A stretch of DNA of 64,000 nt, taken from contig NC_092568.1 in NCBI RefSeq assembly GCF_037975245.1, forward strand, positions 7,733,501-7,797,500, written 5' to 3'. Below, in pieces: positions 12,386 through 64,000 of the stretch. Both the position numbers and the translations under genes were made by a program. The notes beneath the pieces were generated by a model. It was not told the origin of the DNA and searched no databases. It saw only the letters and a program-made list of their open reading frames with translations. Every line of letters starts with the position of its first letter. The first letter of the stretch is position 1. Origin of the DNA: Apostichopus japonicus. Its lineage: Eukaryota; Echinodermata; Holothuroidea; Aspidochirotida; Stichopodidae.

Positions 12386-13679
12386 CTTGGGTAGTAGTTG
12401 TCGGATCTTCAATTCGCGATTAATGAATGTCTTGAATGATTCCCAGTTCTTGGTTTTATCCGATCATGTAAAACCAGTATCGTTGATGTCACATTATTGA
12501 CGATTGTGGTCGGGAAGGCGTGGCTTGCTTTTTTTTACGACTGATTGCAGCATAAAGTTAACTCATCGGTTTTGTAGCTAGCTGATGGCGTTATTTTTTT
12601 ATTTATTTATTTATTTTTTTTTCTATATGAAGTTTCTAAAAAACATCCAGAATCAAAGCGACTGTAAGGTTGAAAGTTCGCAGAACGGCAATACTTTACT
12701 GATATGTTGTTTATATGTAAAAAGTAAAATTATCTTGTAGATATTTACCAGGACGTTGATCCAGGATTTTTGGTTCCTTGCTTTTTGCAAAGCAAGGAAC
12801 CTATGCGTTCAACTTGGCGTGTGTGTGCGTGGGTGTGTGTGTGCGTTAGCAATTACCCTCAACCGCGGACGAAAATGTGAATACACACCCGTCAATCGCG
12901 GACGCCTCGGGAAACGCGGACGGTCCCCGATTGTTATTACAATGGGAACAGTATATTTTGGACCTAATAGTGGCGCTATTTAATTATTTCGTGCCTGTAA
13001 TGCTGGTCCACGATTGAACCGTACAGCGTATGTTGCAGTGTATCCAGTGTGTATGTTATGTCTGTCAATAGTACATTGTGTATCAACAGCGCCCTCATAC
13101 ACTTCCACAGTATGTTGGTCCAAGCAAGCTGCGTGTTTGCGCGCGTTTTTGTTACAAGCAAAGATTGTATGTTACAAGTTACGTACCCGTTCCGTGCACT
13201 GCACTACACAAGTTACGAGTCTATAGACGCTTGCCTCATCAGTTATTCGGTGAGTAATGAACAGAATGTTTTTTTTTTCTGAGTGTCTCGGTTTGATATG
13301 ATTCCGATGTGCAGCACTGTCAGCCGAAAATAACAGTGCTACCTAACTCTAATTGTAAGAACTTAGTATTTTAAGTTTCATTGAAGGCTAGGCCTAGTAA
13401 TAGTATTACTATTAGTACTATTACTACTTCCGTGGCCGGCCTCTATCAGTATCACTGTTAGGCATAGTCTAACTCTAGTCTAATTGAGGCTATCATTGAT
13501 TGACTATTCTTGGCCGAGGCTTTAGGCCTCGAATTTCAAATATATCAAGTAGGACTTTCTAAATGCGATTAGAAAAGATAAGACTGAAGAAGCTAGGTGT
13601 AGGCCTAGTATTTTTCAGCAAGTTGAATTCATAGTGTAGTTTGTTTCACTCGTTTCTTTATCAAATAATTACATGGCTA
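12386..13679. other. Intergenic; possible 5' non-coding exon of the SET gene
   Basis: No protein domain is recognised. An imperfect palindrome (CTTGCTTTTTGCAAAGCAAGG, about 12778) heads a short repeat-like stretch. A consensus splice donor (TTATTCG before GTGAGTAAT) sits near 13248, in locally more GC-balanced sequence. It could end a 5' non-coding exon of the SET-domain gene, with the 210-bp array then lying in its first intron. That is inference without transcript support. Confidence 0.3.
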
Positions 13680-16600
13680 CAGTACAGTAGGTCTAAACTA
13701 GCCTAGCACTGAACCCTTCTGTGGGTTCACCTCTCTATGTTCTGTGTTCCTATGGTACATTAATGGATGTGTATCTCCCCTATTAGATAATCAATCTTTT
13801 AATTGGTGGAATGTGTAGAGGAATGCTTAACTATTCAATGCCAAATGGTAATTAAGTTGTATTTATCTGCTCTCTATCACATAATTACAAAGGATACAGT
13901 ACAGTAACTTGTATAAGTCTAAACTTGCACAATTTTCCTTTCTGTTGGTTCACCTCTCTGTGTACTGTGTTGCTATAGTAATGTATTGGAGATATATGTC
14001 CTAGTTTATGGTAATTGTTAAGTCATTTTCACCTGTCTCATTAAATAATTACATGGGCTATAGTACAGTAGGTCTAAACAAGCACAATTTTCCCTCCTGA
14101 TGGTTCACCTCTGTTTGCTGTTTTCCTACGATACTGTATGGAAGATATGTCCCCTATTAGATAGTCAATCTTTACTATGTTGATATTCATAGGAATGACC
14201 AACTATTTTATGTTAAATGTTTAAGTTATATTCAACTGTCTCATTATTAAATAATTGCATGGCATTAATACAGTAGGTTTAAAAGGCTAGCACAGTTTTC
14301 CCAACTGCTGGTTCACTTCTGTGTGTGCCTGTGATGATATTTTACACTAAATGGCAATTCATATTCATCTGTTAAATTATCAAATAATTGCATTTCTACA
14401 GTAGATGTAAACTAGAACTGCTTCCTGTGTGTTCAGTGCCTGTGATGCTGTATTGTAGATATATGTCCCCTATCAGATAGTCAATCTTTTACTGTGTTGA
14501 CGTTTCATAGGAATGTGTAACTTATTTACGCTAAATGGTAAGTAATATTCATCTGTTTCATTAGCAAATAATAACATGGGATACAGTACAGTAGGTCTAA
14601 ACTAGCACAGTTTTCCCTTTTGCTGTTTCACCTCTCTGTGTGTTGTGTTGCTATGGTACATTATTGTAAATATATGTCCCCTATTAGATAGTCAATCTTT
14701 CACTTTGTGGAATGTTTACAGGAATGCTTAACTATTTTATGTTAAATGGTAAGTCAATTAATCTGTTTCATTAGCAAATAAAAACATGGAATAGTACAGT
14801 AGGTCTAAACTAGCACAGTTTTCCCTTTTGCTGCTTCACCTCTCTGTGTGTTGTGTTGCTATGGTACATTATTATAGATATATGTCCCCTATTAGATAGT
14901 CAATCTTTCACTTTGTGGAATGTTTACAGGAATGCTTAACTATTTTATGTTAAATGGTTAGTCAATTAATCTGTTTCAATATCAAATAATTACATGGGAT
15001 ACAGTACAGTAGGTCTAAACTAGCACAGTTTTCCCTTTTGCTGTTTCACCTCTCTGTGTGTTGTGTTGCTATGGTACATTATTGTAGATATATGTCCCCT
15101 ATTAGATAGTCAATCTTTCACTTTGTGGAATGTTTACAGGAATGCTTAACTATTTTATGTTAAATGGTAAGTCAATTAATCTGTTTCATTAGCAAATAAT
15201 TACCTGGGATACAGTACAGTAAGTCTAAACTAGCACAGTTTTCCCTTTTGCTGTTTCATCTCTCTGTGTGTTGTGTTGCTATGGTACATTATTATAGATA
15301 TATGTCCCCTATTAGATAGTCAATCTTTCACTTTGTGGAATGTTTACAGGAATGCTTAACTATTTTATGTTAAATGGTTAGTCAATTAATCTGTTTCAAT
15401 ATCAAATAATTACCTGGGATACAGTACAGTAAGTCTAAACTAGCACAGTTTTCCCTTTTGCTGTTTCACCTCTCTGTGTGTTGTGTTGCTATGGTACATT
15501 ATTATAGATATATGTCCCCTATTAGATAGTCAATCTTTCACTTTGTGGAATGTTTACAGGAATGCTTAACTATTTTATGTTAAATGGTTAGTCAATTAAT
15601 CTGTTTCAATATCAAATAATTACATGGGATACAGTACAGTAGGTCTAAACTAGCACAGTTTTCCCTTTTGCTGTTTCACCTCTCTGTGTGTTGTGTTGCT
15701 ATGGTACATTATTGTAGATATATGTCCCCTATTAGATAGTCAATCTTTCACTTTGTGGAATGTTTACAGGAATGCTTAACTATTTTATGTTAAATGGTAA
15801 GTCAATTAATCTGTTTCATTAGCAAATAATTACCTGGGATACAGTACAGTAAGTCTAAACTAGCACAGTTTTCCCTTTTGCTGTTTCACCTCTCTGTGTG
15901 TTGTGTTGCTATGGTACATTATTATAGATATATGTCCCCTATTAGATAGTCAATCTTTCACTTTGTGGAATGTTTACAGGAATACTTAACTATTTTATGT
16001 TAAATGGTTAGTCAATTAATCTGTTTCAATATCAAATAATTACCTGGGATACAGTGCAGTAGGTCTAAACTAGCACAGTTTTCCCTTTTGCTGTTTCACC
16101 TCTCTGTGTGTTGTGTTGCTATGGTACATTATTGTAGATATATGTCCCCTATTAGATAGTCAATCTTTCACTTTGTGGAATGTTTACAGGAATGCTTAAC
16201 TATTTTATGTTAAATGGTAAGTCAATTAATCTGTTTCATTAGCAAATAATTACCTGGGATACAGTGCAGTAGGTCTAAACTAGCACAGTTTTCCCTTTGC
16301 TGTTTCACCTCTCTGTGTGTTGTGTTGCTATGGTACATTATTATAGATATATGTCCCCTATTAGATAGTCAATCTTTCACTTTGTGGAATGTTTACAGGA
16401 ATGCTTAACTATTTTATGTTAAATGGTTAGTCAATTAATCTGTTTCAATATCAAATAATTACATGGGATACAGTACAGTAGGTCTAAACTAGCACAGTTT
16501 TCCCTTTTGCTGTTTCACCTCTCTGTGTGTTGTGTTGCTATGGTACATTATTGTAGATATATGTCCCCTATTAGATAGTCAATCTTTCACTTTGTGGAAT

Positions 16601-18000
16601 GTTTACAGGAATGCTTAACTATTTTATGTTAAATGGTTAGTCAATTAATCTGTTTCAATATCAAATAATTACCTGGGATACAGTACAGTAAGTCTAAACT
16701 AGCACAGTTTTCCCTTTTGCTGTTTCACCTCTCTGTGTGTTGTGTTGCTATGGTACATTATTGTAGATATATGTCCCCTATTAGATAGTCAATCTTTCAC
16801 TTTGTGGAATGTTTACAGGAATGCTTAACTATTTTATGTTAAATGGTTAGTCAATTAATCTGTTTCATTAGCAAATAATTACCTGGGATACAGTGCAGTA
16901 GGTCTAAACTAGCACAGTTTTCCCTTTTGCTGTTTCACCTCTCTGTGTGTTGTGTTGCTATGGTACATTATTGTAGATATATGTCCCCTATTAGATAGTC
17001 AATCTTTCACTTTGTGGAATGTTTACAGGAATGCTTAACTATTTTATGTTAAATGGTTAGTCAATTAATCTGTTTCAATATCAAATAATTACATGGGATA
17101 CAGTGCAGTAGGTCTAAACTAGCACAGTTTTCCCTTTTGCTGTTTCACCTCTCTGTGTGTTGTGTTGCTATGGTACATTATTGTAGATATATGTCCCCTA
17201 TTAGATAGTCAATCTTTCACTTTGTGGAATGTTTACAGGAATGCTTAACTATTTTATGTTAAATGGTTAGTCAATTAATCTGTTTCAATATCAAATAATT
17301 ACATGGGATACAGTGCAGTAGGTCTAAACTAGCACAGTTTTCCCTTTTGCTGTTTCACCTCTCTGTGTGTTGTGTTGCTATGGTACATTATTGTAGATAT
17401 ATGTCCCCTATTAGATAGTCAATCTTTCACTTTGTGGAATGTTTACAGGAATGCTTAACTATTTTATGTTTAATGGTAAGTCAATTAATCTGTTTCATTA
17501 GCAAATAATTACCTGGGATACAGTACAGTAAGTCTAAACTAGCACAGTTTTCCCTTTTGCTGTTTCACCTCTCTGTGTGTTGTGTTGCTATGGTACATTA
17601 TTATAGATATATGTCCCCTATTAGATAGTCAATCTTTCACTTTGTGGAATGTTTACAGGAATGCTTAACTATTTTATGTTAAATGGTAAGTCAATTAATC
17701 TGTTTCATTAGCAAATAATTACATGGGATACAGTGCAGTAAGTCTAAACTAGCACAGTTTTCCCTTTTGCTGTTTCACCTCTCTGTGTGTTGTGTTGCTA
17801 TGGTACATTATTGTAGATATATGTCCCCTATTAGATAGTCAATCTTGACAGTGTTGATGTTTCATTGGAAATTGGAACACTTAACTATTGTATTTTAAAT
17901 GTTTAAGCTATATTCACCTTTTCATTATGTAATAATTTCATGGCTACACTACAGTACATAGGTCTAAACTAGGAATGTTTTCCCATCTGCTGCATGAACT
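13680..18000 (+). repeat. Tandem array of 210-bp units
   Basis: The marker ACAGTACAGTA(G/A)GTCTAAAC recurs near 14583, 14792, 15001, 15211, 15421, 15631, 15841, 16051, 16261, 16470, 16680, 16890, 17100, 17310, 17520 and 17730. That is a 210-bp period with one 1-bp deletion. The core (about 14580-17845) is highly homogeneous, about 15.5 units. Older units with irregular spacing (about 13680-14580, 17850-18000) flank it, as expected for unequal exchange homogenising the centre. Units come in two variants at the junction: GGTAAGTC with CATTAGC, and GGTTAGTC with CAATATC. Confidence 0.97.
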
Positions 18001-18784
18001 TTCTGTGTGATGTGTGCCTTTGGTATGTGTATGTTCAAACTAACACAGTTCACTGATTTTGCTGGTTAATACCACTCTCAACCGCTGGTTCAAGAATACA
18101 TTTCTACTGTACTGACAGTGTTCATATAACAGTGTTCATGTATTCATAGGAATAAAGATGTATTGTCAGTTATATTTTAGACAGCTCTAGGTCATTTCAC
18201 CACCATGTCAGATGAATAAAGTAATCACAAAAAGTATTATAATAAGCGAGATAACTGACATTGTCATAGTAAAGCAAACTACGTAGTTACCTGTATTAAA
18301 ACATTCAATTCAAGAACCTATTCATTCACCTTTAAGCATTATACATGTCACTTTGCAATGAGTAAAAAATACCTTTAATTTTCTGAAATACAGATTTGTA
18401 CCCAGCAGTAGGTCTTTGGTCAGATGGATAGTAACAAGCACCTGTAGTTAGCATATTAAAGTCCTATACAGTGAGAACACTATCACACATTGAGTATTGA
18501 CACTTAATATACAGCCAAAATGGAAAGTGCTGGGGTTGTCATGTAAAATGATTTTACCCTTCAGATTGCTTGTTCCCTTTATAGACAAATGGTAAATTTG
18601 TAATGACTAAAATTCAATGGATGTGTATTTGCATAGAACAATACTGCATGGCAAGCTTAATTTAGCAATGATGTTTCTATTCAGATAATATTAGTATTAA
18701 CATGAATTGGACCTAATAGTAGTACAGTTTGACTAGATTTTGTTTGAGTTTTCCATTTCTTCTTCTTTTTCTCTGCAATGCAAG
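18001..18784. other. No gene recognised
   Basis: Single-copy-looking AT-rich sequence between the array and the hydrophobic exon. A long pyrimidine tract near 18750-18775 leads to the acceptor at 18783-18784. Confidence 0.45.
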
Positions 18785-18901
18785 GAATGAAATGTGCTGG
18801 TGAATGGACATTGTACATCAGTTTAGCCGCCTTACTCATCAGTCTGATAATCATCATAGTCTACTTGATGATAATATACATTGAAGTTGCCATCAAACCT
18901 G
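18785..18901 (+). CDS. Candidate alternative first coding exon with a membrane segment
   Basis: This stretch is bordered by a long pyrimidine tract and AG acceptor (18783-18784) and a strong GTAAGA donor (18902). From ATG at 18787 it encodes 38 residues. MKCAGEW is followed by about 25 strongly hydrophobic residues (SLAALLISLIIIIVYLMII near the centre), then EVAIKP and one extra base. The phase matches the SET exon at 19826, and joining them reads KP-GRGVFA in frame. Joining instead to the exon at 19250 gives an immediate stop. It could be an alternative exon giving a membrane-anchored SET protein, an upstream reading frame, or chance. Confidence 0.4.
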
Positions 18902-19262
18902 GTAAGAAAATAGTATCCCATCACTTGTGTACACTTGTGTTTGTATAAGTAGGAAGGAAATTTATTTAGGGATGATGCTGAAACTACCTCCGAAAGTTTG
19001 ATTTCTCTAGTTTTTTTTTTTATTAAGTAACAGTAATATCCAAGTATATTGTTAACTTTCCCCACTTCTATCATCATTTTATCATCATGTTCTGCAGTGA
19101 GTGTTTGAATGAGCTACCATTTTCTACAGGAAAAGAAGAAATATGGATTACCTTTAAACTACTGTACCTCAATCTAATCTAAAATACATTATGACTTCTG
19201 TGAAAAGTAAATTTGAAAATGCTGCAATTAAATGAATTATTTTTTTCAGGTTGACACACAAA

Positions 19263-22200
19263 ATGAGGAGGAAAAGAAGAGAGAAACCAGAAGATGTTGC
19301 CATTTCCATGGTTAAACGAAAAACTGATAGAGATGGATTTTATGTAAAAGAAATACCACAAAAAGGTATCAAATTCAGTTTTATACTTCTTGTGCTGTAA
19401 TAAAGTAAGAATACCTTGACAGAAGTACCCACAAGTTTGTGTAGTGACATATTCACATTTAACATAGGACTATTTAGCAATGGCATAAATAGTGAGTGAA
19501 AACAACAGGAGAGTGACAATGAACCTAAGTGAAGAATGGGGCGAGGAGGGGAAAGGATCATTGGAGAATTAAGGAAAAGATGTTCTTCTTGGATGTTCAA
19601 GTAGTATGGATGTGGTGTGAAGGCATATTATTGCACACCCTTTCGACTGAGGCACAGAATGAGTGGCTATTAAAATTTACAGCTGCGTTTTGAAATTGTG
19701 TGGTTTTGAAACTCTTTCCCAATTTGGGTTCATTTTGTTGAATGTTGGGAAGGTGCAGCTAGTGATCTTGATAGAATGAGCAGTGAACTTTGTAAAAATA
19801 ACTTGGATTTTCTTCTCTGTTCTAGGCAGAGGAGTGTTTGCGAAGGTCAAATTTACCAAAGGAGAGTTTCTACTGCAGTATGCTGGGTCACTTCTGTCAG
19901 TTAATGAAGGAGATAAGCTTGAAGAGGAAGAAGGGTCATCAGGCTTTAGATTTTTCATTTCATGTAAAGGAAAGGAGTTCTGGTGAGTTGAATACCAAAT
20001 GATTCTTTTGTGAGAACATGTACTATTCTACTCTTTAACAAATTGTTAAATTGTCTGCCTGAGTGCAAATGTAAAGGAGTTCGCCAATTCATCTTGAACA
20101 GCGTGCTATATATTTGAAACACTGTTTGCATGCAAAATTGTTTGCTGCATACTTCTAGTACTACAGTCGAGTCAACATGGTCAAATACAGAAATAATAGC
20201 ACTAAACATATGTAATTTGTGGTTTAAACAGTTCAAATATGGGTAAATAATTCACATGCATAAGCCTGAAGACATATTAGCTGTTCCATATTTATACAGT
20301 AGTCAAAGCAATGAAACCCAAACTCCAATCTCTGAAGTAAATTGTAATCCTGAAATTGTTGAGTTTTCATTAACGTTTTACATTTGTGTCTGTAGTAAGT
20401 GACATGTCAACAATCACTCATCTTCTAATCAAACTATTAATCCTTAAAGTGACAGGATTAATCAAGAGTAGACTTGATGATATTTCATAATATGGACCTT
20501 ATTTTCTTAAATAGTATTGATGCAACAGAAGAAAGAGAGACAGGGCCTATATTGGGACGGTTGGTAAACCACGGAGAGAAAAATGAAGTAAACGTGAAGC
20601 CATCTATTCTTGATTTTGAAGGCACACCAGTAATATGCCTTTTTGCCCTCACTGACATAGCAGAAGGTGAGGAGCTGCTATACGATTACGGTGTGTCTAA
20701 TCTACCCTGGAAGCAGCAAGCTAAGGTAAAAATTGAGGTTATACCATAAGGAAGACTTCTGTTACTGGGAATCATGAGAATGAAACAAGTGTTCAACACT
20801 TCACATTGCAACTTTAAATCTAGAATACCTTTGTGAGAAATTCCTTTGCTTTTCTATGAATAAAATGCAACCCAGTATAAGTAGTCTTCTACTTCATGAA
20901 AGTGAATGTTTCAAAACGTTTGCTATTCTTTAATATTCTTGTTGTTGCTTGAAGTAACATATGAAGTTTACTTTCATGTCAGTTTGCTTTGTTTATTGTA
21001 TTCATTAAAATGTTAATTATTATGAAGAAGCTATTCTCAGCTCAACTGTAAGATAGGTAACTTTGTACATAGTTCTCACCAAAGTTATAACTTTGTAGTT
21101 TGCCATAGTATATATGCTATCTGGCTTTGTGTTTAGCACATTCATACAGCAAAGTAGTGGAGCAAATATATGGAACCAATCAACGTTGCAACTCGTCTTT
21201 CACTTTTAATTGAATTTCTAGGATATTCAAAGACATCTCATTTAGTTGCATCACTTTGAGAATAATCTATAATATTTGCTGTGTATGTATGCTGAATGTG
21301 TCAATATAATATAAAATGTGCTCAGGTAATGTAGACAGACAGTAAAGAAACAACCTACTTGAGTTTTGTTTCTTAAGTTATTGACTTTATTCATCAGCAT
21401 TAAGTAGTTCTGACTGATTTATCAACTCAGACAATAATTCAGTCAGGTGAAACTCTGTTGAAACTATGATCATCACCGAACGAACTCACATTACTCAGAC
21501 TTAAGGATGTATTCTAACTTTGCTGAATATTACAGGCACATAATGAAAATGGATCAACATCATCTGTGGCAACGGGGATATCAGCATCTCTCAAAAAGGA
21601 TATTTTGTCATCGCTGGAAAAGAGAGTTTCAGATCAACACTCTGAGTTAATTTCGTCAGTCATAGACACAGAAGACTCACCAGAGAGCAATGCATTAACC
21701 AGTGACCCCACACCAATGACTGAGAGTGAACAAAATGAGAAGGAATCATCATCTCCCACAAAGATATCAGCTGAAGGACTTGAAACATTTTCGTTGGTGA
21801 TGGACACTAAAGAACCCTCATATGGCGATGTCTCAACTAGTGACTCACAACCCATGAATGCTAATGAACAAAACGAAGAGAGATCATCATCTCAGGAAAA
21901 GGACATATCAACTATAGGAACTAAAATAAGTTCATCGGTAATGCACACTGAGGACCCCTCAAACAGCAATGCCTTAAACTCTGACCCACAACCCATGACT
22001 GTTTCGGAACGAAATAAAAAGGGATCATCATCTCCAGACAAGGACATAACAGTTGAAGGACCTGAAATATGTTCATTACTCATGGACCCTGAAGACCCCT
22101 CAGACAGCTCTGCTTTAACATCTGATTCACAACCCATGACTGCTGATGATATGAAGTTTGCACCACAGATTTTGATGAAAGAGACTCCAATGAAGCATAC

Positions 22201-25200
22201 TGAAGTAAGCTCTTTGGTCCTGAACTTGGAAACTGAAAACGTTTTAAAAGATGCATCTCAATTACTCAATGAAAAGAGTCCACTTTCTTTGGAAAAGTAT
22301 ATGTCAGACATAGGATCTGAAATACGTTCCCTGATCATGGACACTGAGGACTCCTTGGAATGCAATGCCTCAACCATTGATTCTCAACTCATGACTCAGG
22401 ACATACCTGCTAAAGGGCCTGAAACATGTTCCTTAGTCATGGACAATGAAGTCTCTGAAAGTGATGCCTCAACCAGTGAGTCAGAATCTGAGTCTTCTCA
22501 TAGTGATGACTATGTGCCTGAATCTGATTATTCTGAGGATGGAGAAAGTTATGTCATACCCTTACCTCGATTCACACAGAGGAGTGGTTGTGTATCTAGC
22601 TCTTCAAGCAGAAAATGTTCATCTCACAATACAAAACAGAACTGTGAAGAAGAAACTGATTGTGTATCCAGCTCATCAGACATTATCAACCAATGCTCTC
22701 AGGAAAAAACCAGTTGTAACTCAGCATCATCAAGCAGATCATGTGGGATTCAGGTGTTGCAAACAAATAATGGTAGAAAAAGGAAATATGATAAGAGTGC
22801 ATATTGCCCATTTTGCCAAACAAGCCAAGCAAAATTGCCTCGACATCTCTCTGAATTTAAGGAACATAAGGATGAGCCAGAAGTTATTCAATGGCTGGCA
22901 ACTAAAGATCCAGAGCTGAAGGCTAAAAGACTTACAAAAATGAGAAATTATGGAAACTTTGTACACAATGCAAAAGTAAGGAAAGAAAACCAAGGAGTTT
23001 TGATTCCAGTTTACCGGCCAAATTTCACGGCAGACCCAGATGATTACTTACCATGCAGTGATTGCTTTGGCTATTATGCCAAAAGTGATCTGTGGAAACA
23101 CCGTTGTCCATTTAGAAAGCATGTAGGCGCACAAAATGCAAAACCAGCAAAGAGGAGGAATTACATTAAAGAAGGGAAAATGATGTTGCCTGAATTTGGC
23201 CTAACCAAGATAACTTCAGAAATCTTTTCGAGTCTTAGATGTGATGAGGAAGGCGTTGCACGTTTCATTAAAGCAGACACGTTAACCAGACAGCTGGCAG
23301 AAAAGCTTGCCTTGAAACTTGGTCATGATAAAGACCAGTATACATATATTAGAACGAAATTAAGAGAAGTTGGCCGCATGGTAGTTGAATACAGACAATT
23401 GACTGGTGAAAGTAATGCATCATTAACCGACTTGATCGATCCAAAGAAGTTTGTAGCTGTTGTAAACGCCACACGCCAGACATCAGGCTTTGATGCTGAT
23501 AGCCACCTTTATGAGACACCAAGTCTAGCACTAAAAATTGGTCACAGCCTGAAGAAGTCTGCAGAAATCTTAAAAGGTGATGCTCTAATGAAAGGTGATT
23601 TTGACCTTGAAAAGCGAAGCAAAGCCTTTATTGAGCTGTATAACATGAAGTGGGAAGAGCTTGTTTCAACGCATGCTTTGAGAACTCTAAATGAGAACAA
23701 GAGAAATGAACCAAAGTACCTCCCAGTCACAAGTGATATTGTCAAACTAACCAAGTACCTCAAAGACAAAGTTGCATGTGGAGTGAATGTACTGAAGAAT
23801 GAGTCAACAAGTAAACCAAATGACGCAAAACATACCTGGAAAGACCTAGCTGAAGTGACCCTCGCCTCCTTGATAGTGTTCAACCGAAAGCGATCAGGTG
23901 AAGTTGCAAAAATGACGACATCAGACCTAACCAAATGCACAAAGGGTGGTAATGGAGTTGCGGTGGAAGGATTATCAAAATTGGAACAGGAGCTATGCAA
24001 AGTACTGTGGCGAGTAGAGATAATCGGAAAGAAAACTAGAACTGTTCCAGTGTTAATGACAAACGAGTTGAAGGAAGCATTGGATCTACTCTACCAGAGA
24101 AGAAGAGAGGCTGGTGTTTTGGAGACAAATCCGTACATTTTTGCAACATTGCACAGTGAAGGTCATATCAGAGGACCTGATGTGATTAGAACACATGCCA
24201 GGAATTGTGGGGCGATCCATCCTGAGTATGTAACATCGACAAGCCTTCGCAAGCACATTGCGACAGTTTGCCAAATAATGAACTTAAAAGACAATGAACT
24301 TGACATCATTGCTCGTTTCATGGGACACGACATTAGGACACACAGAGAATACTACAGATTACCTGATCAGACGTTGCAAGTGGCAAAAGTGTCTAAAGTC
24401 TTGTTCAACATAGAAAATGGCAACCTCCAAAATGTAGTTGGAAAGAGCTTGGATGAAATCCAAATACAGCCTGATGAAGGTGATAATACTTTCTTGTTTT
24501 TAGTTGGAAAAAGCAGCAGACTGTTTTATTATATTAAATTGTGTACTCGAAGTAGTAATGGGAAGAGCGATGATTTGTCCTGTATGTTACAAGAATCCAT
24601 CATTACACCCTTCATTACATTATTCATCAGTACATTAGAGAGGTGTAATTGACCTGAACACATATTTATCTACCTGCATTAATGCTTATCAGGTATCTGT
24701 TAGTTTGTGACTGTAATGTCTAGCCTTGGAACATGAGAACTCGGCGTTCAGTCATTTCAATGATGACCTTTAAACATGATATTGAAACACTTCAGCTTTA
24801 AGCTGCACCTTTGTCTAACGAACAGCCATGGTAGTAAGAACTTCATTAAATTTCTTTTATGAAGTGATCTCACATGCATTGCAAGTAACTGTAAATAATT
24901 TGAACTAAACTTTTTGCCAAACAGTACTAATGATGATGTGCTAATTGGTAACAATTATCCACTTTCCAGAGGTCCCACGTGATGAAGACGTTGAAGATGA
25001 TTACAGTACTATTGCGGTGTCATCCACTGCATCCGATTACACAGACTCCAAGGTCAAAGCAAGTGAAGGTATGCAAATGCTATCAATTGTGAATTTTAAA
25101 GGTTATTACAAGTTGTCTTTTGTAATGTGTGAGAACTTCAATTTGCAACAAGATCATGAAAAAACTTTCACACAATCTTTTATAAATCTTATTATATATA

Positions 25201-25456
25201 CATGTTATTAAATTGATCAGGTGTAAAGAAGACAAAACAAAACACAACGAAGAAGCCATGGACCACAGAAGAAAAGCAAGTTGTAGCAAGAATATTCAAG
25301 AGCTGCTTTTTAAAGAACAATCTTCCTGGAAAAGACAAGATCATGACAGCTATACATGCTGAGCCAACACTACAATCTAGGACGTGGAGGAACATCAAAG
25401 ACTTCATTCGAAACCAAAATAGAAAAAGCGATCCATTGAGTTTTGTGACACTATAG
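19263..25456 (+). CDS. KMT5A-like SET domain / tyrosine-recombinase-like fusion protein
   Basis: Exons: 19250-19365 (start 19263), 19826-19982, 20515-20725, 21536-24479, 24970-25068 and 25221-25456. Phases close to 1,249 residues. Residues 35-150 are a SET domain closest to the KMT5A/SET8 class: GRGVFA, CIDAT, RLVNH and EELLYDYG are intact, so lysine methyltransferase activity is plausible. Residues about 190-480 are acidic, Ser-rich, diverged repeats. Cys/His motifs follow at about 581 (CPFC) and 664 (CSDC...HRCPF). Residues about 880-1115 resemble a tyrosine recombinase: Arg943 (RSGE), Lys989/990 (GKKTRTVP), Arg1062 (SLRKH), His1088 (MGH) and Tyr1096/1097 (EYY). The C-terminus has a Myb/SANT-like segment (PWTTEEK ... 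RTWRNIKDFI). It may be a domesticated or mobile Crypton-like recombinase joined to a SET gene. The SET part and the large exon could also be separate transcripts. Confidence 0.75.
20859..20864 (+). promoter_or_regulatory. Possible intronic polyadenylation signal
   Basis: AATAAA lies about 110 bases after the stop (20747-20749) reached if the third SET exon is not spliced at 20725. Use of it would give a SET-only protein ending KIEVIP. No transcript evidence is available. Confidence 0.35.
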
Positions 25457-25516
25457 TACCTTTGATCATGGTCTTTGCATTACTGTTACTATATACTACA
25501 CTTATACTTTCTTTCA

Positions 25517-25522
25517 AATAAA
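25517..25522 (+). promoter_or_regulatory. Polyadenylation signal of the SET/recombinase gene
   Basis: AATAAA sits about 60 bases after the TAG stop at 25454-25456, a normal distance for a short 3' UTR. Confidence 0.6.
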
Positions 25523-25794
25523 GCCTTCTTGTTCCTGCTCAATCCCAGAGAAAAAGATTGTGAAAGACCTTCCAAAACTTAACATGCAAATAGTCAAGTC
25601 TTTGATGCATTCATTGAGGTCTATATTGATGAGTACCTTTTACGTTGTTTTATGCATTAAAGGTTTATCAGTTGCGTTGGTGACAATGGTGATTTTGTAA
25701 TACACTATGATTAGTTTACCAATTATAGTATTGGTAGTTATGTATAAGTAAAATGATGGGTGGAGTATTTTACCAGTAACATTTTAACAGTCAA

Positions 25795-27415
25795 CTTGCC
25801 CTAGATATCCTTTTAAATTTACAGTGACATTGTAATCAATACAAGAACAAATAGTTTGTGAAATAATCCTATGATATGGTTTCATCTGTAGATGGTAGCA
25901 TCATCCCTTCCCTTCAATATGGTGGGTGAACCAAGAAGGGTGTGAAGGAGGGGGGGGATGGTGGAGAAGTAAGAGAGGTGGGTGCTTAACTCTAATTAAA
26001 GTAGATGTTGTTTATATAGTTTTAAAGTTAAAGTGTTAAGATAACATGTTTTACGTTAAAGATAAAGTGTTTAAAGTTTAGCAAGGTGTGTTATCTACAC
26101 ATTTTACCAGTCACCTTTCTAGATATCCTTTTAATTTTACAGTGAAATTGTTATCAACAAAAAAACAAATAGTTTGTGAAATAATCATATGATATGGTTT
26201 CATCTGTAGATGGTAGCATCATCCCTTCAATATGGTGGGTGAACCAAGAAAGGTGTGAAGGGGGGGGGGGGTGGTGGAGAAGTGAGAGAGGTGGGTGCTT
26301 AACTCTAATTAAAGTAAATGTTGTTGTTTATATAGTTTTAAAGTAAAAGTGTTTAGATAACATGTTTTACGTTAAAGATAAAGTGTTTAAAGTTTAGCAA
26401 GTTGTTTTATTTACACATTTTACCAGTCACCTTTCTAGATATCCTTTTAATTTTACAGTGACATTGTTATCAATACAAGAACAAATAGTTTGTGAAATAA
26501 TCCTATGATATGGTTTCATTTGTAGATGGTAGCATCATCCCTTCAATATGGTAAGTGAACCAAGAAGGGTGTGAAGGAGGGGGGGATGGTGGAGAAGTAA
26601 GAGAGGTGGGTACTTAACTCTAATTAAAGTAAATGTTGTTGTTTAGTATAGTTTTAAAGTTAAAGTGTTTAGAAAACATGTTTTACGTTAAAGATAAAGT
26701 GTTTTAAAGTTTAGCAAGCTGTTTTATTTACACATTTTACCAGTCACCTTTCTAGATATCCTTTTAATTTTACAGTCACATTGTTATCAATACAAAAACA
26801 AATAGTTTGTGAAATAATCATACAATATGGTTTCATATGTAAGTGATAGCTTCAACCCTTCAGTATGATGGGTGAACCAAGGAGGGTGTGAGGGGGGAGG
26901 GGGTGGTGGAGAAGTAAGAGAGGTCGGTGCTTAACTGTAATTAAAGATTATATAGTTGTTTATATAGTTTTAAAGTTAAAGTGTTTTAAAGTTAAAGATA
27001 ACATGTTTTAAAGTTGAAGATAAAGTGTTTTAAAGTTTAGCAAGTTGTTTTATTTACACATTTTACCAGTCACCTTTCTAGATATCCTTTTAATTTTACA
27101 GTGAAATTGTTATCAATACAAGAACAAATAGTTTGTGAAATAAGCATACGATATGGTTTCATCTGTAAGTGATAGCATCATCCCTTCAATATGGTGGGTG
27201 AAGCAAGGAGTGTGTGAGGAGGGGGGGGGGTGGTGGAGAAGTAAGAGAGGTGGGTGCTTAACTGTAATTAAAGATTATATAGTTGTTTATATAGTTTTAA
27301 AGTTTTAGTGTTTTAAAGTTAAAGATAACATGTTTCAAAAGTTGAAGATAAAGTGTTTTAAAGTTTAGCAAGTTGTTTTATTTACTTATTTTACCAGTCA
27401 CTTTCTAGAGGGGGG
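25795..27415 (+). repeat. Tandem array of five units of about 316-327 bp
   Basis: The marker AGTTTGTGAAATAA recurs near 25853, 26171, 26487, 26803 and 27130. Each unit carries TAGATATCCTTTTAA, a poly-G stretch followed by TGGTGGAGAAGT, and an AT-rich TTTAAAGTT tract. The last unit breaks down near 27400. No coding capacity is seen. It begins about 340 bp beyond the SET/recombinase gene. Confidence 0.95.
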
Positions 27416-28599
27416 TGTGGAAAAGTGAGAGGGGTGGGTGCGTTACTCTAATTGAAGTTGACAGGATTGCAGATTTGTTCCTTTAAAGTGAAGTTTAATG
27501 TTATAAAGTTCACCAAGTGAGTTCCTTTTTAAGTTTTACCAGTGAAGAGTGTTTGAATGAACTACCAATCAGTGAAAGCATGTGGATGATTTGTAGTTAT
27601 CAAAGTTTAAACTTTTCTGTTTAAAAACTTTAATTTTGTTTCATTAAGTGGCTTTTAGCCCTAGTATGTGGTTACCATACCCTGCTCTTTAACATGACAA
27701 CAAGTGGTAGTTTATCTCATTACTTCAATATTAAATACAAGTAGGACTTGTGCTGATGGATTGCCAACCTGAGCAAGGATTCACTTTTGTGAGATATTAA
27801 AGGGACATTGTACCTGAGCTTGTTCATGTGTTTGCTTGCATAGTTGGCATATCATATAATGTCTCTTACTACTTTATTGCTGTTGGTAGGCCTATACTTG
27901 TTGTGGTCTATAATGAATTATTCACATAGAATAGCAACAGGTCATACGACAATGATGAAGGCATGTAGCGCCACAAGTCACTTTCTGCAACTTGTAGATC
28001 TGCTGTATTGGCCCAAATATAGTGTTTTCATGTATGATTCATTGTAGTTTACTCTTTAAGAAGCCTCTGCATTGTTCACAGTGCATACATGCAAAGAACA
28101 AGTGAGATGTGACGTTACCATGTGTCAAGTCTCTATAGATATGGTAAATACTCTAAAGGAGCTGCATTACATGACAATACATGTGAACTGGAACAACAAT
28201 TTGTACATTGTTTATTGTCTATTTGTACATTGTTTTTTGTCTATGCTGTACATTTCATGATTCTTTGCATCGGTAAAGGTCAACATTGGAGCTCAAACCT
28301 AATTCTGGAGAGATGTTTTATTTCCTACTGAGCTTTAACATTTTGTAGACTTGGACCCCGCCACTGATTGTGTCATGAGAATGTCAGATTAATTTCTGAG
28401 GCTTCACTGGTTAGCTGTTTTATATGTCTTTCTAAACTACACAAAAGTTTACAGCTCAATATAGTTTAGACAAACAAATGGTTATCTGTTACATATATGT
28501 ACAGAAATAAAACCTTTCAGCAATGTAATACTTCCATGTTTGTAGGATGCTTTAGGCAGCCATATGTTACAAATAGCTGTAATATCCAGAGGTTGTGCA
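27416..28599. other. No gene recognised
   Basis: AT-rich sequence with short open frames only. None shows a domain, splice borders or a coding-like composition. Confidence 0.5.
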
Positions 28600-29520
28600 A
28601 ACACGTCCCCGCTTAGATTTTGGAAAACCCTCTGCTTAAGTGTGCACATCCACAATTGGATGGTATTCATTAAGTTCATAGTTGACATTGGGAACTTCCG
28701 CATTATAAACGCTGTGTCCACAATTGGATAGTATTCATTCAAATCCACAGTTAATATATGGAAACTCCACACTAAAGACACAGCATGTCCGCAGTTGGAT
28801 AGTATTCATTCATATCCACAGTTGATATGGGAAAACATCGTACTATAAGCTACCGTGTCCTCGGTTGGATAGTACGGTATTCAGTGTCAATATTTCAACA
28901 GTTGAGATATGGAAAATCACGTTGATCGCCAGTGATGACTAATTATGATGTTAACGTGGCACTTGTGCTATTTACATGTACAGAAAATATGCCTTTAACA
29001 GTAGGGTGGTGGTTTGAGCTGTCACGTGTTAAAAATATCTTGCATATGGAGGATATGCAAACATGTCCCTGGTTAGAATTGGGAAAACTACTACGGTGTT
29101 TCCAGCATTGGATTGCCTTCCCGTTGTGTCCACAGTTGCAATGTGCTAATTCACACTATACCCTGTCCACGATTGGATAGTCCGGTATTCCCATGATGTC
29201 CACAGTTGAATTGTGGAATATCACATATTGGTATTTGATAATAAATAATGACTATTCCTAATGTTTGTGTTCGGAAATTATAGGGTGGTGGTTTGAGCTG
29301 TCATGTGTTGCAAGTACCTGGCATATACAGATGCTATGCACACATGTCCCCAGTTAGAGTTGGGAAAACTCTACGCTAATGTGTCCACAATTGGATAGAA
29401 TTACCTTCGCATCCACAGTTGGTATGTGGAAAGTACACACATTATTGTGTGTCCACGATTGGATAATATATTTTCATTATGTCCACAGTTGCATGTGGAA
29501 AATCACATAATGATAATTGA
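28600..29520. repeat. Diverged tandem repeats built on GTCCACAGTTGGATA
   Basis: The motif TCCAC(A/G)(A/G)TTGGATAGTATTC and its variants recur about every 70-110 bp. A longer unit containing GGGTGGTGGTTTGAGCTGTC occurs near 29005 and again near 29283, giving a period near 280 bp at a higher level. The repeats are strongly diverged. Confidence 0.75.
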
Positions 29521-29779
29521 TCGTAAATGATGACAAAAATAAACAAATCAGGTATTTACATAATGTTTTATTAACAATCAAGGAAGTACGCTTGTAACCT
29601 GTAAACAATAACTTGATATGAAGACGTCCACACTTGCATAGTATCAACATATGGTCCCCGATTGAGGGCATTTACATGTATGCGTGTGTGTATGTGACGC
29701 TTGGCTTGTGTACACGATATCTCAATAAGGAAATGATGTATCATGATGAAACTTGTTGGGTGGATAGCCCATAGTAAGA

Positions 29780-31250
29780 GGAAGATCCCTATTGTTTTTG
29801 GTGCCCGCAAAGGTCACCAAAGGTCAGTTAGATGCCAAAAACCAATATATTAAAAACAGCAATAACTCCCATTGACAGGGTCCGACATGGTTGATATTTT
29901 GGGAGTAGTTGTGAATGGGGTAAGGCATCGTTTCCAAACATAACGGTAATGTGATCGAAGGTCAACAAAGGTCAATTAATGATAAAAAACTAGTATTTTT
30001 GCGATAACTTGAGAACAAATTGTCCGTTAGGGTTGGGAGTTGCTTCAATGTAATCCAATTGTCGACCCGCATCTGGGTGACCCTTGACCTCAATTTGACC
30101 TCTGGTGACCTCTGGTGACCTTTTTGTGTTTTGTGGATTTTTACAGTTTCGATGCTATTTTCAGATGTTAAAGGTACCTTCTGATCATAAATGTCAATGG
30201 GTTGACCCCCGTGTGACCTTTGTGTGCGAAGTTATACGAGGTCAAAGTTAATTTTTAGACATTTAATGCAATAACTCCCAGTTCCAAGGTGTGACACGGT
30301 TGATATTTTTGGAGTAGTTGCAAATGGTATAGGGGAATATTTTCAAACTTAACGGTCATGTGATCCAAGGTCACCAAAGGTCAATTAATGATAAAAAACT
30401 AGTATTTTTGCGATAACTTGAGAACGACTTGTCAGTTAGGGTTGGGAGTTGCTTCTATGTAATCCAATTGTCCACCCACATCTGGGTGACCCTTGACCTC
30501 AATTTGACCTCTGGTGACCTTTTCGTGTTTTGGGGATTTTTACAGTTTTGATGCTATTTTCAGATGTTAAAGGTACCTTCTGATCATAAATGTCAATAGG
30601 TTGACCCCTGGATGAGCTTTGTGTGTGAAGTTATAGGAGGTCAAAGTTAATTTTCAGACATTTAATGCAATAACTCCCAGTGCCAAGGTGTGACAAGGTT
30701 GATTTTTTTGGACAAGTTGCGAATGGTATAGGGAAATATTTTCAAACTTAGCGGTCATGTGATCCAAGTTCACCAAAGGTCAGCTAATGTTAAAAAACTA
30801 GTATTTTGGGGGGAGAAAATGGGCAAAGAAAAAATGTTTGAATTTTTACAGTTTTGATGCTCTATTTAGGTCTCACCGATCAAAAATGTCAATTGGTTGA
30901 CCTACGGGTGACCTTTGTGTGTGAAGTTATGTATACAAGTTCAAAGTTAATTTTTAGACATTTAATGCAATTAAATCCCAATGCCAAGGTGTGACACGGT
31001 TGATAATTTGGGACAAGTTGTGAATGGGGTGGTGGAACATTTTCAAACTTAAAGGTCATGTCATCTGAGGTCACCAATGTTATCATATCTGTTGACCCAC
31101 TTGTAGGTGACCTTATATTTCTTACATTTTCGACGCCATATTTAGATCTCAAAAGTGCCTTTTGATCAAAAATCCGATCACATTTTGTGATCACAAAAGT
31201 GTTGGCTATAGTGTTGGTTACTTTATGGGAACATGTAGGACCACAATTAC
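29780..31250. repeat. Tandem array, about 400-bp units, rich in AGGTCA half-sites
   Basis: The marker GCAATAACTCCCA (with variants) starts units near 29862, 30270, 30668 and 30968, so periods are about 408, 398 and 300 bp (last unit shortened). Each unit contains GTGACA(C/A)GGTTGAT and several AGGTCA/TGACCT hexamers. Exact direct repeats with a 4-base spacer occur at 29811-29826, 29959-29974, 30096-30121 (triple), 30368-30383 and 30505-30520. A one-mismatch copy is at 30767-30782. No coding function is seen. Confidence 0.9.
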
Positions 31251-32234
31251 TTGGACTATTTGAGCCCAATCTTGCTTGATAATATTATGTGTATTGTCAT
31301 ATACCCCAAGCAAGGAACCACAGTGCCTTGGGCTCTTGTTTTCCAACGGAGGGGGGGGGGTGTAGCTCTGGGTCGTTGAAATGTAGGGGATGAGGCGGGT
31401 TCTCTTCAGAAAAAAGAAATACTAATTTGGACCGTCGTGTCAATGGGTGCATACTGAGGCATATGTATACTTTAAATTGGTTTATAAATCGATCTTAGGG
31501 CAATCTTGTGCTAATTACTACTTTTGAAGTTTTGGTAGGAGAATTAAAGGGATGTACACCCCACTACCTGTATGGATCCACGCAAATAGGTTTACAATAG
31601 CGTTGGTCAACCTGTTGTGATACATTGGAACACTTATCATTGATATCAAAAAAATATATCAAAATATTATCTTTCGTTATCTGGAGGCAAATGTTATTCC
31701 TCTCAATTTCCATGTCATTTTAACACACAAAAGAACATGTTAGGCAAATGAATCGATATAAAACTAACACCTAGAGAGAAAATTAATTTGAAAATTACTA
31801 AAGATAACCGTTGGTGGATCATTTGCCGTCTTTCTATATAAATAACACTTTAATAATGCACTCCAAATAGGAACACAAACGGAAATTTTCTTTTTTGGTG
31901 ACGGTGTCTATTGCCACGTACAGTAGTGTGTTTATCATGCCATGGTGTAAATTTTATCAAAATGGTGGTTCGGCCATATCCATTGTAACAGCTATTTCTG
32001 GTTAACAAGCAGAAGTCTAGTGCAATAAAGTCATCGAAACCTCAATGCGTGTTGCAAAAAAGTGCCTTGAACCTTATAGCACGATTAACACGATTAGCAG
32101 GAGCCAACAAGTCCTTTCACCTATACCAAAACGTCTGCTAGAAAAATAACTCTAAAAGTATTAATTTTCTTTAGTTTCAATTTCATTGTGCCAAACAGTC
32201 ATAAATACACAAAATTATACAATATATACATGAA

Positions 32235-61247: not shown

Positions 61248-63217
61248 CTAAATTGTTTTATTCCTAGTCACAGGTGTTGAAAGAGATTTCTGCATTTGAG
61301 AGCTAGTTGAAACAGTTATTTGTGGCTCCGAGACTTGATTTGGTAAAAGTGGTACCCGCTTAGTTTCCAAATCTTCCTGTTTTATCTGACTTTGACTCAT
61401 TTGGTCCCTCTGCCTGCCAAAGTCGCCGCGTTTCAGCTCCATGTCGGAAGGTGGGCGAACTTTATTATCGTCGCAGTAACAAAATACTCTAATACTGTCA
61501 CGAATGTTTTTATACTGTTTACATGCGGCGGTGCGAAACGTCCTGTTGAGAATTGAGTATAGCCATGGGTTGATGGCAGCATTCATCAATGTTAATGCGA
61601 GAGATAGCTGACACAGACTGCATTGCAAATTGTCAGGTTTGAAGAGGTCAATCACAGTAAGGATGTTCAGTGGTAACCAACAGGTCGCAAAAACACCTGT
61701 AAGAACGACACCAAAAAGAAAGGCAGGCAATTATTTTAATATAGTTAAAAATTGATTAAATATATATTTAGAATGCTGCTGCAGTGGTTGCTCTGATAAG
61801 ATATCAAATATGTCTTTTTTTTTCTATCCTAATATAGGTTTTATGGTGTATATACCTTTTAGGCGATATTTTTCTACTATTTGCTTTGAATGTTTCCTGT
61901 ATTTGAAATGTTTCCTGTTTAGTAATTGTTTCAATTCCTGTAAAGCGCTTCGAGCAGCGTTGCTGATCGAGTTCTCATCGTTTGGAAAGATCTCAAAACC
62001 TACAGAAGGAGTTTACTCGTCACTTTGTGTTAGAGTATTTATGACTTTTTCATCCTATTCTGGTGATCTTGTAAATAAGTCGGTAATTTAAATGACGCCC
62101 TACAAAATGTTGAGTTTCCTTGCCTCTTGAACCCAGTCACCATGACGACAGCTGTAATGAATCACCTGAACTCTTGTTACATCTAACTACAGTACATATC
62201 GTAATAATAGGCGAACCATCAAACCCTCTCCCTCCCTCTTAGCCCCTCCCCCATCCCCCCCTTCATCAGAGAAGCGCTAAATTTAAAGGGCAAAAACTTG
62301 ACAAACTCCTAGTGCAACCTGATATTGTCTCATCATAAAATACTCTTTTTTTTTTTTTTTTAATGGGAAACCCATTTTATCAATCAGATGGGGCAGTTAA
62401 AGGAAAAATGAAAGTAATTCTAGCGATTGATGGATCGTAGAGACTGTTTTATCGTGAGACTGGGTTTTGACTTACCGGCGAGTAGCGCTAGAATCTTGAC
62501 AGCTCTGTAATCTTTATGCTTGGGGGCAACATATCTACAGTTGTCTTCGTTGCATTCTATGACTTTCCGCTGCGCTTGAGTGAAGGCTGTCCGTCCGATG
62601 GATATGTACATGCAGCATAGGATGACGAACGGCAGACATATACCGATGCCGATGAAAGCCAGGGTGGCGGCCACTCCCAGCATGGGAAGACACATACGGA
62701 ACTGTCTGTGGAAGCTATAGCCTGGTAGTAACAGTGCGCTGCTCCAACACAACGCGCAGATCCAAAGTGAACAGACGGCGACGATCGCTCGGTGTTTCGT
62801 GACCCGCTGGTGGTAATGGAGCGGTTGATTCACCGCAAAGTATCGCTCTATGCTGAGTAGAGCCAACGTCCATACGGAGGCCTCGGCTAACACGGTGTAC
62901 GTGAAGCCTATTAGAGTACACAACCAGTGCTGACGCATGCCCCCGTTGGATGGCTGTATGCTAATCACCATCGGTACGAGAAGCGCGGCCGATAGGAAGT
63001 CGCTACTCGCCAGGTTCAACAACAGGCACCAGGTGATGGTATGAAGTTTGCTGGTCCGTATAATCACTGCTATCACCATGAGGTTTCCTAAGAAAGCAGC
63101 CATGGCAGTTAATGCTAAAACAGTGCACATGATGACATAGGTGTAGCTGGTAGAGATCACCTCAGGTTCCTCGGAAGTCACTGGGCTTACAGTAGCCATT
63201 CCAAAACAGGACATCAA
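61248..63217 (-). CDS. Class A (rhodopsin-like) orphan GPCR
   Basis: Seven-transmembrane plasma membrane receptor. Exon 1 is 63217-62476 and exon 2 is 61696-61248, joined in phase at LLAG-VFATCWLP, giving 396 residues. TM1 has GNLMVIAV. TM2 has NLASSDFLSAALLVP (the sodium-site Asp). TM3 starts at WLCTL (disulfide Cys) and ends SIERYFAV, with ERY in place of DRY. TM4 contains SLWICALCW and TM5 CLPFVILCCMYIS. TM6 has the CWLP motif and TM7 NAAINPWLY. A cytoplasmic tail with CYC and basic stretches follows. The single intron splits the third loop from TM6. All class A hallmarks are intact. The ligand cannot be told from the sequence. A start seven residues in (MATVSP) is possible. Confidence 0.92.
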
Positions 63218-64000
63218 TTCCCAGTCAAGCCAATATTGAAATTTTGTCTCCCATTTTCATTCGCTAGACAAAAACCCTTTCTCTAGAAAAGTAGTTTGTC
63301 AACAATGACCCAAACTGTTGATGTTGACTGTTGAATGCTGGTAGAATATATTTGTATCATCTTGAGGGAGTCTCATCTAACTTTCTGGAAAACGATTAAA
63401 TACTGTTGGTTCCAATCACATCACCTTCAGAGACAGACTGGAGATTTTCAGCATAGCTTCAAATTAGCAGATAACAGGAAAGCTCTGAAATAAAGCAAAA
63501 CCATTTGTCAGAAACTTGCAGGCAACTTTAAGCATTGGCACACATTGTACCCCCTTCATATCTTGGTTGACATTTGCAACACCAAAAAGAGATTCCATTT
63601 GTTCTTCAGTGTTCTCTTAGGTGGTACAGTTGTCAATATCAATTGAGTCTTTAACTGTTGGAGGAAACATGACCCCTATCTTAATTGTAGAACAACAGGA
63701 AGATGTCCCGGTTTACTACTGTTTGTAATACAAATCTGCAGAGTGTATTCATTAATGGGAATCTACACACTACTATGGTATACCGTAGTGGCCTGAAACA
63801 AGACCAGATATATTTAAAAATGAACCAAATATTTAATACAACGGGGGAAAGAGCAAAAAAAAACTAACGCTCTAGAAAACATTTAGATAATTGAAGTTGC
63901 AAAATGAATTGACATGATGTTTATAACTTTTTGACAACCTTGTTAACAATGTTGTGTTTTGTAATATTTACAAACTTAAGCAAGTCTGATGAATTTCAAC
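63218..64000. other. 5' flank of the GPCR
   Basis: No coding exon was recognised. The GPCR promoter and 5' UTR should lie here. I see no clear TATA box at a fitting distance. Confidence 0.4.

Follow-up and report, generated by a model that had tools for sequence, protein, structure and literature searches.

We analysed a 64,000-nucleotide stretch of the genome of the sea cucumber Apostichopus japonicus (contig NC_092568.1, positions 7,733,501 to 7,797,500 of the forward strand), hereafter the window, which lies on contig 8 of the searched assembly (671,581,487 bases, 35 contigs). It carries a gene in which a SET domain is joined in frame to a tyrosine-recombinase-like (YR) domain, and this gene forms part of an element with closely related copies elsewhere in the genome, among them the sister copies c2 (17,210 bp) and c3 (16,810 bp). 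Related YR domains were aligned as ten families, nine of which are 32-52% identical to the YR domain of the window. The gene model proposed in a first-pass annotation of the window held up on examination: six exons, separated by introns that all have GT-AG borders, join in phase to encode a protein of 1,249 residues with no internal stop, and c2 and c3 retain the same intact frame (Table 1).

Other parts of the predicted protein fared unevenly. The repeat region of exon 4 was recovered as a 141-bp tandem unit (21841-22149). Among the proposed Cys/His motifs, two C-x2-C pairs stood up to family comparison (Table 1), but zinc profiles gave weak results: zf-C2HC_2 matches one of four family members (E 0.0033), and the window protein's own Pfam zinc matches amount to weak zinc-ribbon noise. 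A suggested Myb/SANT-like tail was not borne out, with no Pfam match at E<=5 and a partial match to B-MYB (E 1.9) ranking below unrelated ones. Upstream of exon 1, within the element, an exon-like stretch (18778-18901) runs from an ATG through a hydrophobic segment, MQGMKCAGEWTLYISLAALLISLIIIIVYLMIIYIEVAIKP, to a GT at 18902, and is possibly an alternative 5' exon.

Table 1. Features of the gene and of the element that contains it, in window coordinates.
Feature	Position	Strand	Remarks
Whole element, window copy (19,284 bp)	12772..32055	+	homology of copies stops here, flanks differ
TTTTT of insertion site, left side	12767..12771	+	TTTTT precedes 15 of 20 left ends
Left end, type B: palindrome GGTTCCTTGCTTTTTGCAAAGCAAGGAACC then TATGCGTTCAA	12772..12812	+	
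210-bp tandem array, 16 copies	14451..17846		common to other element copies
Exon 1	19263..19365	+	residues 1-34; frame intact in window copy, c2, c3
Exon 2, SET N-terminal half	19826..19982	+	3' intron position and phase as in host KMT5A
Exon 3, SET C-terminal half (RLVNHG, LLYDYG)	20515..20725	+	
Exon 4: repeats, two C-x2-C motifs, tyrosine-recombinase-like domain	21536..24479	+	
Cys/His motif region, C581/C584 and C664/C667	22805..23107	+	Cys invariant in 4 aligned families
Candidate catalytic codons R943 (23891), K989 (24029), R1062 (24248), H1088 (24326), Y1097 (24353)	23891..24355	+	
Exon 5	24970..25068	+	in-phase join, frame kept in c2, c3
Exon 6 and stop	25221..25459	+	coding part 25221-25456; Myb/SANT nature unsupported
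316-bp tandem array	25779..27409		inside element
399-bp tandem array	29859..30807		inside element
Right end TCATCGAAACCTCAATGCGTGTTGC	32031..32055	+	outermost bases atypical; exact form occurs once in genome

The assignment of the SET domain to the KMT5A/SET8 type was confirmed. In a Pfam search of the window protein, residues 35-146 match PF00856 (E 3.9e-17), KMT5A is the nearest solved structure (E 6.6e-22), and the sequence has both N105-H106 and the LLYDYG core. Identity to host KMT5A amounts to 45 of 113 residues, and to human KMT5A 45 of 114, or about 40%. In host KMT5A (L007, contig 15), in the window and at three further loci (L028, L037 and L172), the SET intron interrupts one and the same cysteine codon in phase 2 (TG^C or TG^T). 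Because intron position and phase are shared, the SET sequence most likely derives from the genomic DNA of a KMT5A-type gene and brought one intron with it. When three other host SET domains are included in the SET tree, its grouping with KMT5A is only weakly supported (76/81). Separately, three SET matches of equal score on contig 13 (C13:9229189, 9269216 and 9309243) lie exactly 40,027 bases apart and mark a 40-kb tandem repeat that includes a SET match.

The SET domain might alternatively be passenger sequence, or a chromatin reader devoid of methylation activity. Counting against a catalytic role, the NH motif has become ND in four of the ten families; NH is nevertheless kept in the other six, including that of the window, and YDYG or FDYG occurs in all ten. 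We regard a passenger or reader as unlikely, though by no means negligible.

Copies, ends and insertion sites of the element

A DNA search with the 2.9-kb exon 4 recovered four copies at 99-100% identity on three contigs (two on contig 8, the others on contigs 19 and 14), along with diverged or broken copies at 81-91% on contigs 8, 2 and 12, and a single 119-bp match at 71% on contig 17. Homology among copies reaches well past the gene: in the window it begins at about 12.8 kb, ends near 32.1 kb and crosses the three tandem arrays. Both c2 and c3 retain all six exons, with 4 and 13 of 3,753 bases changed relative to the window; in a further copy, c4, the frame and an acceptor are changed. Given that introns are kept in all four copies examined, copying did not proceed via mRNA, and a retro-origin was rejected. 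A single-copy host gene in the manner of SETMAR was set aside in view of the many copies, some of them young and nearly identical. Outside the gene, the element was found to hold no open reading frame of more than 100 aa in a scan of ATG-initiated frames of at least 60 aa, which small spliced genes could escape. Elsewhere in the window, on the minus strand (62423-63256), a 278-aa open frame appears by eye to be G-protein-coupled-receptor-like.

Both c2 and c3 start with GGTTTCGATGAAATCGTAACC and end with TCATCGAAACCTCAATGCATTTTGCATTCTGG, their right ends reading GCATTCTGG followed by TT; an 11-bp inverted repeat is terminal at the left end and subterminal at the right. Allowing up to three mismatches, left ends of type A, the form seen in c2 and c3, were found at 146 places, the 24-base part of type B at 220, and the usual right end at 897, with no occurrence of any reversed-pattern control. 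Left ends of types A and B are both palindromes of the form GGTT...AACC with different inner sequences, which possibly reflect the recognition specificity of different recombinase families. A direct repeat, TGGTT, stands at both ends in c2, c3 and a set of short elements, but is lacking from the right end of the window copy. Combining a type-B left end with this unique right end, the window copy may be a hybrid or a decayed element.

Many of the places with these ends belong to short elements, of which at least 12 have paired ends on one strand and span 1.6 to 3.3 kb. All 12 have a left flank ending in TTTTT or TTATT, and at their right ends TT comes directly after TGG. Among 20 left ends (L064 and L065 sharing a flank, and L066 and L067 being tandem copies), the preceding bases are TTTTT in 15, TTATT in three, CTATT in one and TCTTT in one; type-B left ends with a flank have TTTTT in 7/7 cases. 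The right end is TGGTT in 16 of 17 and CGGTT in the other. Empty sites exist for four of the 12 insertions, because those four lie in dispersed repeats, and all nine empty loci read TTTTT and then the right flank, with no GG. This pattern fits either a 2-bp TT duplication or an exchange over a non-identical 5-bp overlap (target TTTTT, element TGGTT); TGGTT as a duplicated target was rejected, since the empty sites lack GG. Head-to-tail arrays of short elements were also observed (C22:17071894-17074629 and C17:19384214-19386793), with left ends 1,355 and 1,270-1,286 bases apart, and L080 is a locus at which a type-A right end and a type-B-like left end meet at TGGTT.

How these ends relate to the SET-YR gene was assessed from 200 listed left ends (100 of the 146 of type A and 100 of the 220 of type B). 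Nine are within 30 kb of a full-length YR domain: seven upstream on its strand, one upstream on the opposite strand and one downstream. Several observations weigh against the transposon reading set out below. Empty sites are known for the short elements and not for those of 17-19 kb; only seven of the 200 listed ends lie on the strand of a full-length YR domain and upstream of it, three of these being the window, c2 and c3; and of the 16 genes matching the Pfam profile PF00589 above cut-off, four, in two clusters, have type-A left ends no more than 30 kb away. The latter genes stand amid left ends at C16:17.47-17.72 Mb and C14:24.43-24.55 Mb, where perhaps a second recombinase family uses the same ends. 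Given this proximity, we considered that the short elements may be moved by another recombinase, with SET-YR elements sharing or borrowing their ends, an account consistent with the small number of listed ends that adjoin a SET-YR gene. It is rather improbable, however, given that the young complete copies c2 and c3 both carry exactly these ends and that seven of the nine nearby ends are upstream of a YR domain on its strand. The presence of PF00589-positive genes near type-A ends also means that movement of the short elements by the SET-YR protein can be put forward only as a proposal.

The recombinase-like domain

Five candidate catalytic residues (R943, K989, R1062, H1088 and Y1097) had been picked beforehand in the first-pass annotation from one sequence, in the order expected of a tyrosine recombinase, the lysine as Lys989/990 and the tyrosine as Tyr1096/1097. 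Alignment found all five invariant in 10/10 families, the chance of five randomly picked R/K/H/Y residues all being invariant amounting to 2.5e-5. The K-R, R-H and H-Y spacings of 73/26/9 compare with 75/23/9 in XerD, whereas the R-K spacing of 46 exceeds the 24 of XerD through an insertion. Of two adjacent tyrosines, Tyr1097 rather than Tyr1096 would be the nucleophile, because it stands at H+9, as in XerD (H270-Y279).

Aligned with hhalign to a Xer/Cre/Int profile of 84 sequences, the R, K, R and H fall on known motifs, in the right register, and a hidden Markov model (HMM) of the family ranked one bacterial recombinase, of 84 included, higher than any of 2,604 decoys, again in the right register (E 0.007). 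A number of results point the other way. In the H-x-x-R box, Thr1059 stands in place of the first His (T in nine of ten families, S in one); 2 of 60 column shuffles outscored the real hhalign alignment; and in the reverse search, a Xer HMM did not separate family members from shuffles. With YR profiles against the PDB, one search gave no match and another a single unrelated one at 0.29, and searches of the domain in Pfam, PHROGs, NCBIfam and the PDB yielded nothing above cut-off or convincing. PF00589 does match two of eight family members (9.2e-6 and 1.7e-5), with its best stretch ahead of the catalytic motifs, and none of ten trimmed catalytic parts; we did not count these matches, because they are lost once that stretch is cut. 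DUF3504, the Crypton-type profile, was not among the Pfam matches of the window protein or family members, and among viral contigs searched with the YR alignment none of 65 pattern matches was confirmed.

These negative profile and PDB results are what would be expected if the domain had another DNA-binding or nuclease fold and the motif order had arisen by chance. We give little credence to such a coincidence, which would have to accommodate the invariance of five residues named in advance, the XerD-like K-R-H-Y spacings, the hhalign register, the bacterial recombinase ranked above all decoys, and element ends without terminal inverted repeats. From its invariant residues and their spacing, the C-terminal half is very probably a tyrosine recombinase.

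Distribution of the fusion across the genome

The recombinase domain of the window has 135 matches in the genome, none of which is among the 16 places found with PF00589. Of 134 matches, 78 are at least 700 nt long; for 60 of these 78, PF00856 matches on the same strand no more than 40 kb upstream. On the opposite strand, an upstream SET domain was found for 0/78 full-length YR domains, and downstream for one on each strand; random placement gave 0.31 upstream same-strand pairs on average and never more than three in 1,000 trials. Pairing is frequent (58/70) at YR identities of at least 33%, and drops to 2/8 below. As the SET search scored 150 of 270 candidates, some of the 18 unpaired YR copies may be misses. 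The locus L048 (C16:4990749), whose 634-aa frame has a recombinase domain just 26% identical and no SET upstream, is one of three similarly scoring copies that are maybe a SET-less sister group. Of 56 partial recombinase matches, contig 17 holds 22, and 21 of the 22 fall between 15.6 and 24.2 Mb, a graveyard of broken copies that is perhaps a region of low recombination.

At four loci, which represent two families, a single frame without a stop covers the C-terminal half of SET together with the recombinase (L028, 1,498 aa; L031, 1,484 aa; L032, 951 aa; L033, 1,429 aa), the second SET exon running into the recombinase with no counterpart of window intron 3. These four loci make two independent transcripts unlikely, and they bear out the central proposal of the first-pass annotation, that a SET domain is fused to a tyrosine-recombinase-like one. 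At a fifth locus, L030, the frame carries SET and stops within the recombinase domain. Across the ten families, SET and YR distances are correlated (Mantel r 0.43, p 0.009). The two trees nonetheless conflict locally; well supported pairs differ between them, which suggests that modules have been partly exchanged.

A family of host genes, in the form of a domesticated recombinase-SET spread by segmental duplication and no longer a transposon, would agree with the long spliced genes and with the age of the architecture, as judged from the 32-52% YR identity of the families to the window. It is nonetheless very improbable, in that homology of the copies ends at the same termini amid unrelated flanks, intact dispersed copies are within 4 and 13 of 3,753 bases of the window, and the same ends recur at hundreds of places, with empty sites. 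Hardly credible is a pair of adjacent genes mistaken for a fusion, for which the 810-bp intron between SET and recombinase in the window, a model drawn from genomic sequence and the separate SET and recombinase-side frames of L029 might be cited, in the face of the uninterrupted frames at four loci and of window exons that are in phase and intact in c2 and c3.

Proposed mode of action and relation to known systems

Taken together, these findings suggest that the window element is likely an autonomous and recently mobile Crypton-like tyrosine-recombinase DNA transposon, one family of a large superfamily in this genome, whose fused KMT5A-type SET domain was captured with one intron of its source gene. 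The first-pass annotation had left the choice between a domesticated Crypton-like transposase and a mobile element that captured a SET gene; we favour the latter because of the intact, dispersed and near-identical copies, the defined ends and the empty sites of the short elements.

We infer a working model in which the recombinase-like half would bind the palindromic ends, the element would be excised as a circle through chemistry at Tyr1097, and the circle would be recombined into TTTTT-like sites. The same protein, or those of sister families, may also move the many short non-autonomous elements, which have the same ends. For the SET half, whose frame stays open in diverged families, the most likely role would be to methylate a nucleosomal histone at the bound element or at the target, at H4K20 as suggested by kinship to KMT5A or at another lysine, and so to couple transposition to the state of the chromatin or the phase of the cell cycle. 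Local chromatin marking would be the likeliest use of the SET domain, since the same protein must contact the ends. Whether such a mark would license, time or, by self-silencing to limit damage, restrain movement cannot be read from sequence. That one protein performs both SET and recombinase reactions is itself predicted from sequence. We propose tentatively, as an idea that falls somewhat short of probable, an animal transposon superfamily in which the recombinase is a histone methyltransferase and a KMT5A-type mark at the element or its T-tract targets times or licenses movement. Transposons are commonly silenced via histone methylation; a transposon with its own methylation writer fused to the moving enzyme would, if true, represent selfish DNA acting on chromatin. 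Because intact copies are young and the ends are defined, direct tests of excision, insertion and methylation are possible, and families that have or lack the NH motif of SET provide a natural comparative series.

With KMT5A/SET8, the element shares the SET sequence, at about 40% identity, and the position and phase of the SET intron; to our knowledge KMT5A is without a recombinase. Starship elements of fungi are likewise large and led by a tyrosine recombinase, with multi-gene cargo and another captain family, whereas here there is one large gene with a fused SET domain. In the literature searched, with most subscription papers and Repbase outside the search, we found no report of a Crypton or tyrosine recombinase fused to SET, a histone methyltransferase or KMT5A, nor a Crypton-like superfamily with a fused SET domain such as the one predicted here from one animal genome. 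The terms 'SET domain' and 'methyltransferase' do not occur in the Crypton survey (PMC3212892), and the word Crypton is absent from the main text of the sea cucumber genome paper (PMC10344927).

Compared with Cryptons as described in that survey (Kojima and Jurka 2011, PMC3212892), the element shares a recombinase-type gene, the lack of terminal inverted repeats and of any sign of reverse transcription, and a short direct repeat: in c2, c3 and the short elements, filled sites have TGGTT at either end. Ends of the Crypton kind, without terminal inverted repeats and with direct repeats of 4-6 bp, were found in c2, c3 and 12/12 short elements. Of the Crypton R-H-R-Y tetrad, both R and the Y are present here and, together with K and H1088, invariant in all ten families, whereas the box-II His is T or S and no profile scored above cut-off. 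The element further differs in its size of 17-19 kb, its tandem arrays, its N-terminal SET fusion and a pre-insertion site, TTTTT, that is not a copy of the terminal repeat; in the model proposed for Cryptons the direct repeat equals the recombination target, whereas 9/9 empty loci here read TTTTT without GG. Retrotransposons carrying DNA methyltransferases, including SymbioDIRS-Dnmt3 (PMC5890265), are also mobile elements with a captured chromatin-modifying methyltransferase, one of them with a tyrosine recombinase; theirs is a DNA methyltransferase, in reverse-transcribing elements of dinoflagellates and charophytes, with the recombinase in a separate open reading frame. SETMAR of primates likewise fuses a SET methyltransferase to a transposon enzyme. 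It is, however, a domesticated host gene with the mariner-type Hsmar1 transposase, whereas the fusion described here occurs in many mobile copies and involves a recombinase-like domain.

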